Below are positions 26,874 to 35,414 of a stretch of DNA of 37,885 nucleotides, in pieces; positions within the stretch are counted from its first letter, which is position 1, and each line of letters begins with the position of its first letter. The position numbers and the translations under genes are program-made. This stretch comes from Bacteroidales bacterium (GTDB taxonomy: Bacteria > Bacteroidota > Bacteroidia > Bacteroidales > UBA932), in contig JAKSKE010000015.1 in assembly GCA_024401895.1 (NCBI GenBank), positions 1 through 37,885 of the forward strand, read 5' to 3'. Under the pieces are notes generated by a model. The model was not told the DNA's origin and searched no databases. It saw nothing but the letters and a program-made list of their open reading frames with translations.

Positions 26874-28031
26874 ATGAGATTTTCCGGCAATATAGAAGAT
26901 TATCCCGACGGGATTGTTCTGGCGATTGACAAGCCGTACCGGTGGACTTCGGCCGACGTGGTGCGCAAGGTCAAGTATGCGGCGAAGCGCCACTTTGGGA
27001 AGAAGAACCTGAAGGTGGGGCACGCCGGCACGCTGGACCCTCTGGCCACCGGCATTCTGCTGGTGTGCATAGGCCCGGCCACCAAGAAGGCCGAGGAGTT
27101 GCAGGCCAGTCCCAAGACATATATTGCGGGGGTAAGTTTCGGTGCCACTACGCCGTCTTTTGACCGTGAGAAAGACATAGACAAAGTGTGCCCGTTGGAC
27201 GGGGTGTCGCTGGAGGCGCTGAATGATGTGCTGCCGTCTTTCATTGGCGAGCAGGAGCAGGTGGCGCCGCTGTTCAGCGCAAAGTCGGTGGACGGGGTCA
27301 GGGCTTATGAGACGGCCCGCCGGCTGCTTAAGGAGTCGCAGCGCAACGGGGTGGAGTTTGACCACAGCGCCGCAGAGCTTTTGCAGACCAATCGGATAAA
27401 TATTTATGACTTGAAGGTGCTGGATTGGCTTTCCTCGCCGCCGGAGGCTGGTGGTTTCGGACCTTCGCTGGCGCTCATCCCTCCCACTTCGTGGGCCCCT
27501 CCCGCTATCAAGCGCGGGTGCTTAGGGTCATCACCGCAGGAGGCTGGTGGTTTCGGACCTTCGCTGGCGCTCATCCCTCCCACTTCGTGGGCCCCTCCCG
27601 CTATCAAGCGCGGGTGCTTAGGGTCCTCGCCCACAGCCTCCTGCGGCGATGACTGGATTTCCGGGGAAGGGTCCGGGGATGAACCTGCCCGGAGCGAAAG
27701 CGACGCGCTCCTCAGAGCGCACGGCGGTGCGGGTATGTTTGCGCAGCAAATCATACGGGAGCAAGGAGCCGAGGGGTCCGGGGATGTGCCCCGGTATGAG
27801 CATACCCGGAACGGAAGAATAAACGTTGCCGACATAAGCGGTTACAATCTGCCAACGGCAATGATAGAAGTCCACTGCAGCAAAGGCACTTACATACGTT
27901 CACTCGCAAGAGACCTTGGTGAAGCACTGGGCAGCGGAGCCTTTATGAGCTCCCTGCGCCGGACCGGCAACGGAGGCTTCACTATTCAACAAGCAATAAC
28001 TCTCGACGAAGCCTTACGGCTTCTGGATTAG
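26874..28031 (+). CDS. truB: tRNA pseudouridine-55 synthase with ~130-residue repeat-derived insertion
   Basis: TruB isomerises U55 in the T-loop of tRNAs. The N-terminal catalytic part is intact: KPYRWTSADVVRKVK and GHAGTLDPLATG with catalytic Asp55. The C-terminal part (about residues 316-385: VHCSKGTYIRSLARDLGEAL, LRRTGNGGF) is also normal. Between RINIYDLKVLDW (ends ~185) and RINVADISGYNLP (~315) lie about 130 extra residues absent from ordinary TruB (usually ~230-300 aa). They are encoded by two 96-bp direct repeats plus a second repeat-rich stretch, giving two copies of EAGGFGPSLALIPPTSWAPP and a Gly/Ser/Arg-rich segment. The insertion keeps the frame. Whether the protein is active, spliced by length heterogeneity or a pseudogene in progress is open; all catalytic parts remain. 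Confidence 0.93.
   Translation: MRFSGNIEDYPDGIVLAIDKPYRWTSADVVRKVKYAAKRHFGKKNLKVGHAGTLDPLATGILLVCIGPATKKAEELQASPKTYIAGVSFGATTPSFDREKDIDKVCPLDGVSLEALNDVLPSFIGEQEQVAPLFSAKSVDGVRAYETARRLLKESQRNGVEFDHSAAELLQTNRINIYDLKVLDWLSSPPEAGGFGPSLALIPPTSWAPPAIKRGCLGSSPQEAGGFGPSLALIPPTSWAPPAIKRGCLGSSPTASCGDDWISGEGSGDEPARSESDALLRAHGGAGMFAQQIIREQGAEGSGDVPRYEHTRNGRINVADISGYNLPTAMIEVHCSKGTYIRSLARDLGEALGSGAFMSSLRRTGNGGFTIQQAITLDEALRLLD
27435..27649. repeat. Palindromic repeat element inserted in truB (two 96-bp direct repeats, inverted ends)
   Basis: Two 96-bp direct repeats start at 27443 and 27539 and are nearly identical for about 87 bp. The whole is framed by a 16-mer box TCRCCGCMGGAGGCTG at 27435-27450 (plus), 27531-27546 (plus) and 27634-27649 (inverted). 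Each repeat carries two hairpins: CCCAC-ttc-GTGGG (27483-27495, and +96) and CCCGC...GCGGG (27501-27518, and +96). The unit length is a multiple of three. The sequence has no stop in the truB frame, in a second plus frame, or in at least one minus frame, which lets it sit inside a gene. Confidence 0.85.
27650..27815. repeat. Second repeat- and hairpin-rich stretch in truB
   Basis: GGGTCCGGGGATG occurs at 27669-27681 and 27774-27786 (105 nt apart), GCGCTC-ctca-GAGCGC forms a perfect hairpin at 27705-27720, and CCCGG pieces recur near 27688, 27790 and 27805. It extends the foreign part of truB to about 27815, again in frame. It differs in sequence from the 96-bp repeat and may be a separate inserted element. 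Confidence 0.6.
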
Positions 28032-28050: not shown

Positions 28051-28095
28051 AAAAACGCCCCGGCACGATTCATTTACGGCCGGGGCAATCTTTTT
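28051..28095. terminator. Bidirectional terminator between truB and the G1P dehydrogenase gene
   Basis: GCCCCGGC (28057-28064) pairs with GCCGGGGC (28079-28086) around a 14-nt loop. AAAAAC precedes and AATCTTTTT follows, so each strand has a T-tract after the stem. It ends both convergent transcripts. Confidence 0.85.
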
Positions 28096-28128
28096 CGTAC
28101 ACACGCGAATGATTCGCGTGTGTACGAA
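28094..28128. repeat. Perfect 35-nt palindrome with single-base centre
   Basis: Left arm TTCGTACACACGCGAAT (28094-28110), centre G111, right arm ATTCGCGTGTGTACGAA (28112-28128): 17 bp of perfect inverted repeat. It lies between the terminator and the stop codon of the minus-strand dehydrogenase gene (28130-28132). Its core ACGCGAAT-G-ATTCGCGT resembles the palindrome at 37838-37854. Protein-binding site, repeat element or a cruciform-prone spacer are all possible. Confidence 0.85.
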
Positions 28129-32988: not shown

Positions 32989-33098
32989 GGGCGTTTTTGG
33001 TAATACTTAAGAACCAGCGAGTTGTGAAAATCCCTTCCTCGATCTGACGGAAGGGATTTCTGTAAGCCTCTCATTATAAAGCACTTCTGAAAACGCTC
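32989..33098. repeat. Quasi-palindromic element, copy A (110 bp)
   Basis: Begins GGGCGTTTTTGG and ends CTGAAAACGCTC, an inverted pair. At its centre AAATCCCTTCC (33028-33038) and GGAAGGGATTT (33049-33059) form a perfect 11-bp stem. Each half is roughly the reverse complement of the other, so it aligns with copy B (35304-35414) in both orientations. Its right end abuts a 39-bp tandem duplication at the 3' end of the transposase gene. Confidence 0.85.
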
Positions 33099-33172
33099 AA
33101 AATTCGCCGCGTGTGTCTTGTGCCGTGTGAAGTGCTCAAAATTCGCCGCGTGTGTCTTGTGCCGTGTGAAGT
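33095..33172. repeat. 39-bp tandem duplication over the transposase stop codon
   Basis: Two identical 39-bp copies (33095-33133, 33134-33172) begin GCTCAAAATTCGCCGCG. The second copy encodes the last ~12 residues and stop codon of the transposase; the first repeats that sequence between the stop and element A. Identity suggests a recent event. Confidence 0.9.
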
Positions 33173-35303: not shown

Positions 35304-35414
35304 GGGCGTTTTCAGAAGTGCTTGGTGTCCAGCGAATTACAGAAATCCCTTCCGCAGTTTGACGGAAAGGATTCCAGCAACTTATTGAATACCAATCGTT
35401 TCCAAAAACAGCCC
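35304..35414. repeat. Quasi-palindromic element, copy B (111 bp)
   Basis: Begins GGGCGTTTTCAG and ends CCAAAAACAGCCC. The central stem is AATCCCTTCCG (35344-35354) with CGGAAAGGATT (35363-35373), one mismatch. Shared with copy A are GGGCGTTTT, CCAGCGA, AATCCCTTCC and TGACGGAA in the same order, and the reverse-strand match GCGTTTTCAGAAGTGCTT. It lies between two convergent genes and could also end transcription. Confidence 0.85.

Follow-up and report, generated by a model that had tools for sequence, protein, structure and literature searches.

A long insert in the truB gene of an uncultured gut bacterium, probably a member of the genus Cryptobacteroides, is on sequence comparison a composite of two unrelated repeats, here called element A and module B. 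It is highly likely that element A represents a lineage-specific, non-autonomous and mobile-looking family whose in-frame copies survive as protein loops, and that its copy in this truB was duplicated and had module B added to it. The family itself, its copy number, its covariation, its in-frame positions in many genes, its occurrence in both orientations and its empty sites can all be read from the genomes compared.

The window, i.e., the whole stretch of DNA analysed (37,885 nt), makes up the entire contig C7 of a draft assembly that counts 64 contigs, totals 1.45 Mb and is 76% complete. Judged by TruB, its nearest relative with a name is Candidatus Cryptobacteroides fimicaballi, at 90% identity over 184 aa and 84.8% identity in the DNA, and the genus was therefore taken to be Cryptobacteroides. 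Pfam matches on the TruB protein were limited to TruB_N and TruB_C_2, and the NCBIfam TruB model was matched in two stretches with 166 bits against a cutoff of 151. The features discussed below are as follows.

26874-28031, + strand: truB, tRNA pseudouridine-55 synthase; a single open frame of 385 aa running through the insert
27432-27809, + strand: whole insert relative to element-free truB loops (approximate limits, from comparison with relatives)
27432-27527, - strand: element A unit 1 (left arm and core); strand reading GGGAGGGG; match to covariance model R1 at 27452-27535
27528-27623, - strand: element A unit 2, repeating unit 1 in tandem (97%); match to model R1 at 27548-27632
27527-27546, + strand: left arm (outer helix H0) of the unit-2 palindrome; inverted repeat
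27634-27653, - strand: right arm (outer helix H0), inverted, closing the palindrome; inverted repeat
27597-27619, - strand: H-type pseudoknot of unit 2; position read by hand, supported by family covariation
27616-27619 with 27606-27609, - strand: pseudoknot stem S1 of unit 2, AAGC/GCTT; read by hand
27610-27614 with 27597-27601, - strand: pseudoknot stem S2 of unit 2, CCCGC/GCGGG; read by hand
27660-27798, + strand: module B, a second dispersed repeat, in frame; defined by own-genome matches and missing from Ca. C. fimicaballi truB

The truB insert and its counterparts in the genus

The first-pass annotation of this DNA had described an insertion of about 130 residues at 27435-27815 and treated it as one repeat. 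The insertion is real, the catalytic-domain loop having 128 residues against 20 or fewer in 23 of 60 truB rows from the genus, which also supply the empty site that had been proposed for relatives; its ends, however, were refined by those relatives to about 27432 and 27809. Both 96-bp direct repeats that had been noticed are present and 97% identical, one unit being, to judge from its sequence, a local tandem duplication of arm and core. The 16-mer box likewise recurs as claimed, with three exact matches at 27435-27450 (+), 27531-27546 (+) and 27634-27649 (-), the third of them inverted; with up to 3 mismatches the window had 6 occurrences, compared with 1.22 in shuffled sequence. Positions 27527-27546 and 27634-27653 form an inverted repeat of 20 nt (95%). 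The notion of a single repeat was not borne out, as 27660-27798 is a second dispersed repeat lying outside the palindromic element.

TruB was found in 59 of the 61 Cryptobacteroides genomes searched, and the survey of its loop, in which the two halves of the protein were matched separately, comprised 60 rows representing 59 distinct loci (L055 and L109 are an identical locus). Rather than being conserved among relatives, the loop ranges from 12 to 128 aa over these loci, that of the window being the longest, and Ca. C. fimicaballi is the only relative to have part of the insert of the window (46 aa, one unit). The lengths for L093 and L105 are rough, since the match to their first half stopped at residue 157, and L048 is truncated by the end of its contig. 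In all 59 distinct loci the loop length was a multiple of three and free of stops. The strict element A core was found in the truB loop of eight of 59 genomes, the window included, while four other species (G212, G411, G314, and G428) carry a second multi-copy repeat family there, with 18, 25, 7, and 9 matches in their respective genomes, truB included. A variant palindrome in the loops of L047, L060, and L086 stands outside the element A counts. The truB of one near relative (L157, among 56 loci) is out of frame with stops and its match ends early, perhaps through an error of the draft. Among element-free truB genes, the one nearest to that of the window shares about 78% aa identity with it in the N-terminal part, and no target duplication was legible at this divergence.

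Orientation varies at this site. Between G395 and G293 the truB flanks run in the same direction and the element is inverted, with 90.8% identity over 131 bp, the first conserved part of truB being 73.5% identical. This could reflect a flip of the core within its arms or the arrival, in reverse, of a related copy at this site; an inversion in place is likely but not certain, because the element (91%) is more alike than the gene (73%).

In an AlphaFold2 model of the TruB of the window (33 sequences, mean pLDDT 72.5, pTM 0.64), the kind of check suggested earlier for an exposed loop, the insert is predicted as an unstructured loop that lies between catalytic-domain strands. Residues 192-311, between the strands 173-186 and 328-335, had a pLDDT below 50; outside the insert, ten-residue means were 57-98, most of them above 83, and the best structural matches of the model were TruB enzymes.

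Module B has nine other pieces at seven other places of its own genome (E < 0.01), on contigs C4 (88% over 139 bp), C25 (two places), C23, C58, C3, and C14; several of these sit at contig ends, and their gene context was judged by eye from open-frame lists. In Ca. C. fimicaballi (L134) the truB loop has 46 residues and holds one element A copy with related arms, and neither the tandem duplication nor module B was found in it. The simplest history, given this single copy and the lack of B, is that the truB copy common to both would have been duplicated in tandem (arm and core) in the lineage of the window and that module B would have been inserted beside it, both events in frame. Within truB, the tandem duplication and module B were seen in the assembly of the window only.

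Several further repeats were observed in passing. In the window, a perfect 17-bp inverted repeat with a 1-nt spacer lies immediately 3' of truB (28094-28128); 54-156 consists of two units of 51-52 bp in tandem (98%), whose ends are inverted and which resemble by eye a stretch of own-genome locus L069, so that they may be a further dispersed hairpin; a 49-nt inverted repeat (82%) joins 33048-33096 and 35306-35354, 2.2 kb apart, and is adjoined on the former side by a perfect 39-bp tandem duplication (33095-33172); and 633-812 is a tandem array with 19-20 bp spacing. On contig C4 of the same genome, an ORF resembling thioredoxin reductase by eye (L062:2-1171, - strand) contains about 90 in-frame residues of short PATAAQ-type tandem repeats, a different way to lengthen a loop. 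Elsewhere in the genus, G422 has two adjacent truB-like matches (G422:C2:9565-10874), and the truB loop of L056 (G400) shows two palindromes by eye, one of them ending in a TCATTTCGAG...CGAGAAATCT hairpin which we take to be a widespread repeat type.

Core, pseudoknot and arms of element A

The structure of element A, which with its arms measures about 90-160 bp, was studied in 93 distinct copies recognised by a strict core pattern in the collected loci, a pattern that favours well-kept copies. A consensus fold of 24 copies by RNAalifold pointed to downstream pairing by the loop of the first hairpin. Stem S1 is fully paired in 84 of the 93 copies, with 11 stem sequences, and S2 in 89, the maxima with shuffled partners being 43 and 46, respectively; 88 of the 89 paired copies fall into four S2 variants (CCCGT/ACGGG, CCCGC/GCGGG, CCCTC/GAGGG, and CCCAT/ATGGG). 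Double-sided change was counted in 83 cells of the 24-copy alignment against a shuffled mean of 31, a value reached by none of 500 shuffles, and the whole structure on this alignment scored better than all 500 shuffles and all slid versions; the alignment was chosen for good arms, and both controls leave relatedness in. From this sequence covariation, the core is read as an H-type pseudoknot (S1 and S2) followed by further small hairpins and enclosed by inverted arms. In Rfam, neither the window region (E <= 5) nor seven loci carrying clean copies (E <= 1) had a relevant match, such hits as there were being unrelated or below threshold.

Arms of at least 14 nt (14-35 nt) with at most 1 mismatch were present in 61 of the 93 copies and in none of 279 swapped-arm controls; in the other 32, the arm test found no arms of 14 nt. 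The arm sequences differ between nearly all copies, in contrast to ordinary transposons with their common ends, yet remain complementary. Only 34 of 1275 arm pairs shared 14 or more positions, the strongest cases being L081/L088/L092 (truB), L013/L016, and L099/L103 (truB). Four own-genome copies beyond the 93-copy set (L268, L272, L274, and L276) have related arms, and the sharing of arms by these dispersed copies speaks for arms travelling with the element. An origin of the arms as inverted copies of the flanking target sequence was considered and set aside; by eye it is suggested at truB of L081, L088, and L092 and at aroE of G386. Complementarity could have been kept during change either by compensatory selection or by copying from arm to arm in replication, for which quasi-palindrome correction provides the background.

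Open frames on both strands, to which the first-pass annotation had drawn attention, are real but not special. A pre-adaptation to coding, visible as an excess of open frames, was rejected: 334 of 558 frames of the 93 cores are open, compared with 357 (sd 10) in dinucleotide shuffles, and the openness thus follows from base composition (67% G+C).

Copies in other genes and genomes

In a BLAST search of its own genome, the palindrome matched truB only at E <= 0.001, so that a covariance model was needed; the genome search that had been recommended therefore failed in its simple form and succeeded with model R1, which gave at least 10 matches, two of them the truB units. The other eight, together with the module B pieces, supply the further copies on which the idea of a repeat family depended; among the own-genome matches, that on C11 is without arms and that on C14 has a degenerate core. 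The same model had at least 9-48 matches in 12 of 14 other Cryptobacteroides genomes, and no match in G107 and G222 among the candidates scored. All these counts are lower bounds, as up to 150 candidates were scored per genome, and the genomes are nearly all drafts, mostly metagenome assemblies. Across 119 genomes from the order, searched with stricter filters, matches at E <= 1e-4 were confined to the own genome and G550. BLAST with the truB element at E <= 0.01 hit 113 of the 398 family genomes, the own genome among them, many of the matches being short.

A hand list places 38 copies within 18 kinds of gene, among them truB, aroE, rlmB, rlmI, rsmE, ksgA, recG, dnaX, and xerC. A copy was counted as in-gene from domain matches, with domains flanking it on both sides or a profile that continues across it; outside truB such copies were found as spanning open frames, so gene-breaking insertions would escape. 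Eight loci near a frame end or beyond the matched domain (L191, L192, L195, L223, L226, L283, L285, and L289) were left out as ambiguous.

The clearest counterpart to truB is aroE, in which the element sits in frame at the same loop in five genomes, with an empty site in eight relatives. Here the C-rich strand is coding in two genomes and the G-rich strand in three, and the arms differ among genomes, those of G289 and G312 being partly alike. Of ten listed element loci outside aroE, two are in genes (tsaB and xerC). A further 39 loci were taken in order of E-value, aroE copies (L229 being by aroE) and one contig-end copy excluded and gene scans limited to loci spanned by a long open frame; nine of them fall within conserved genes, namely prmC, rlmB (two), rsmE, a ferredoxin-type gene, rlmI, ygiQ, the gene of a FAD-dependent enzyme, and dnaX, the last with two element copies. 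Among 29 loci from the family BLAST, many from other genera, one is in a gene (aroE of G386). The own genome has one more in-gene copy, in rlmI (L264).

For the near-complete genome G308 (five contigs), the best 20 of 31 copies comprised 10 in genes, 3 ambiguous and 7 without a supported spanning gene. The hosts are ksgA, rsmF, dnaX (upstream domains alone matched, the downstream HemN_C match falling below its cutoff), rlmB, recG, two tldD/pmbA-type genes, a hemN-type gene, xerC, and queH. Four of these seven were scanned for split genes: two (L281 and L282) lie between different genes, L263 had a family match on one side and L290 on neither.

The coding strand of the 38 in-gene copies is C-rich in 24 and G-rich in 14. 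As the open frames of the element are themselves divided 214 to 120 between the strands, the in-gene orientation fits a simple open-frame filter. By name, many of the hosts are enzymes that modify RNA or act on translation components (truB, rlmB, rlmI, rsmE, ksgA, rsmF, tsaB, queH, and prmC).

Origin of the insert and comparison with known systems

The reading we prefer is that element A copies would have spread through Cryptobacteroides genomes as passengers, moved by some enzyme. Copies would have been lost where they broke genes and would persist, in frame, in tolerant protein loops, where they would be translated as flexible loops and probably be selectively neutral. The position of the site, in a loop that joins two strands, would explain why TruB tolerates its insert. 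The earlier idea of a mobile-looking palindromic family tolerated in coding DNA, similar in logic to that of Rickettsia, is thus supported.

That the loop merely varies in length through local duplication, with no mobile element, would account for the differences in truB loop length between species and for the 96-bp repeat, itself a tandem duplication; we consider it most improbable, because the same core recurs in numerous copies per genome, within unrelated genes as well as in the spaces between them, and because module B has pieces at seven other places. A misjoining of repeats into the truB of a metagenome-assembled genome is equally hard to credit: it would be favoured by the draft state of the genome and by the several module B pieces at contig ends, but a separate assembly of a related species (L134) has the element at the same place, seven other genomes have the strict core at truB, and both truB halves are in one frame. 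The strong covariation of the pseudoknot core, and its presence inside many genes, could also point to a structured or ribozyme-like intervening RNA that is excised from the mRNA or bypassed in translation, which would leave TruB free of the insert. This appears very unlikely, since excision or bypass would not need the frame that is kept, free of stops, in the 59 truB loci and five aroE cases, and since a folding RNA should have one sense orientation whereas both orientations are coding. The arm mismatches (23 G.T against 11 A.C) lean towards RNA of the G-rich strand and are not decisive. A group I or II intron or an intein is likewise opposed by the Rfam searches, with no family above chance, and by the Pfam result, with TruB domains only.

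Mobilisation as a REP/REPIN-type element by a RAYT (Y1 tyrosine) transposase deserves some consideration, although it is doubtful. Y1 transposase matches are frequent in Cryptobacteroides (46 of 61 genomes, in 43 above the Pfam cutoff), many of them in open frames near 290-370 aa, and REPs are known as palindromes inserted in genes, truB included (PMC3733652). Element cores, however, lie within about 1.5 kb at one of 28 Y1 loci, about the estimate from copy density, and element A, apart from its greater length, has a pseudoknot, arms peculiar to each copy and no constant tag, GTAG and CGTC occurring anywhere on either strand in 25 and 27 of the 93 cores, respectively. As a separate observation, a hairpin with a 19-bp stem starting TGGGAGGG stands beside a Y1-transposase match in two species (L239 and L242, from G289 and G312, about 1830-1890) and is perhaps a RAYT-associated hairpin distinct from element A. 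A more speculative proposal, to which we give little weight, is that element A stands for a mobile structured nucleic acid of a new class, in which the pseudoknot is recognised as folded ssDNA or RNA, the arms are rebuilt by template switching, the core can flip, and loops of RNA-modifying enzymes, TruB above all, serve as landing sites in several phyla. Template switching, if true, would keep each copy a near-perfect hairpin despite its own arm sequence.

Protein-coding palindromes are best known from Rickettsia, Wolbachia and, as REPs, some other bacteria. Here a single gut genus (at least 200 genomes) has up to dozens of copies per genome, with a large share in conserved genes, and its many species, in which a given gene can be found occupied, empty or with the element reversed, make the entry of selfish DNA into proteins, and the importance of the new loops, testable. 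The copy-specific complementary arms form a natural record of compensatory selection or of arm-to-arm copying. The literature covered, at the level of titles and the beginnings of abstracts and with subscription papers mostly outside, held no such report for Bacteroidota or Cryptobacteroides or for a pseudouridine synthase. The suggestion of novelty for Bacteroidota accordingly met no contradiction there, but is tempered by PMC3733652, which in the part consulted lists CGTC-type repeats in Bacteroidetes. Palindromes inside truB are, according to the same source, not new in bacteria, being known in Proteobacteria (S. maltophilia, E. litoralis, S. alaskensis, and R. conorii, in the last as RPE-1), and this repeated targeting of truB here and there calls for an explanation.

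Element A shares with REPs the position of palindromes inside ORFs, truB among them, GTAG- and CGTC-tagged REPs lying inside ORFs of several species (PMC3733652). However, REPs are 20-40 bp long with a tag at one end, whereas element A is multi-helix, and in contrast to REP/RAYT systems its copies do not flank the transposase gene. Like MITEs it is short, with inverted ends and many copies, but its inverted ends are mostly not common to the copies, and it has neither an identified parent insertion sequence nor a target duplication legible at the divergence compared. PARCELs are also dyad-symmetric DNA that codes and has spread between genomes, yet they consist of 25-residue protein units repeated in tandem, in ORFs of no assigned function (PMC2996958), whereas element A lies in housekeeping enzymes. 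The closest likeness is to the palindromic elements of Rickettsia and Wolbachia, multi-copy palindromes of about 100-150 bp found in frame in unrelated genes and in intergenic DNA; RPEs, of which R. conorii has 44 of ~150 bp, are nearly half in ORFs (PMC10969869), and their peptides lie at solvent-exposed positions (PMC3767692); for TruB, the model has the insert as a loop of low confidence. Element A differs from these in belonging to another phylum, in its covarying pseudoknot core and copy-specific complementary arms, and in occurring in either orientation at truB and aroE in different species, and may thus be described, by analogy and on a comparison of descriptions only, as RPE-like.
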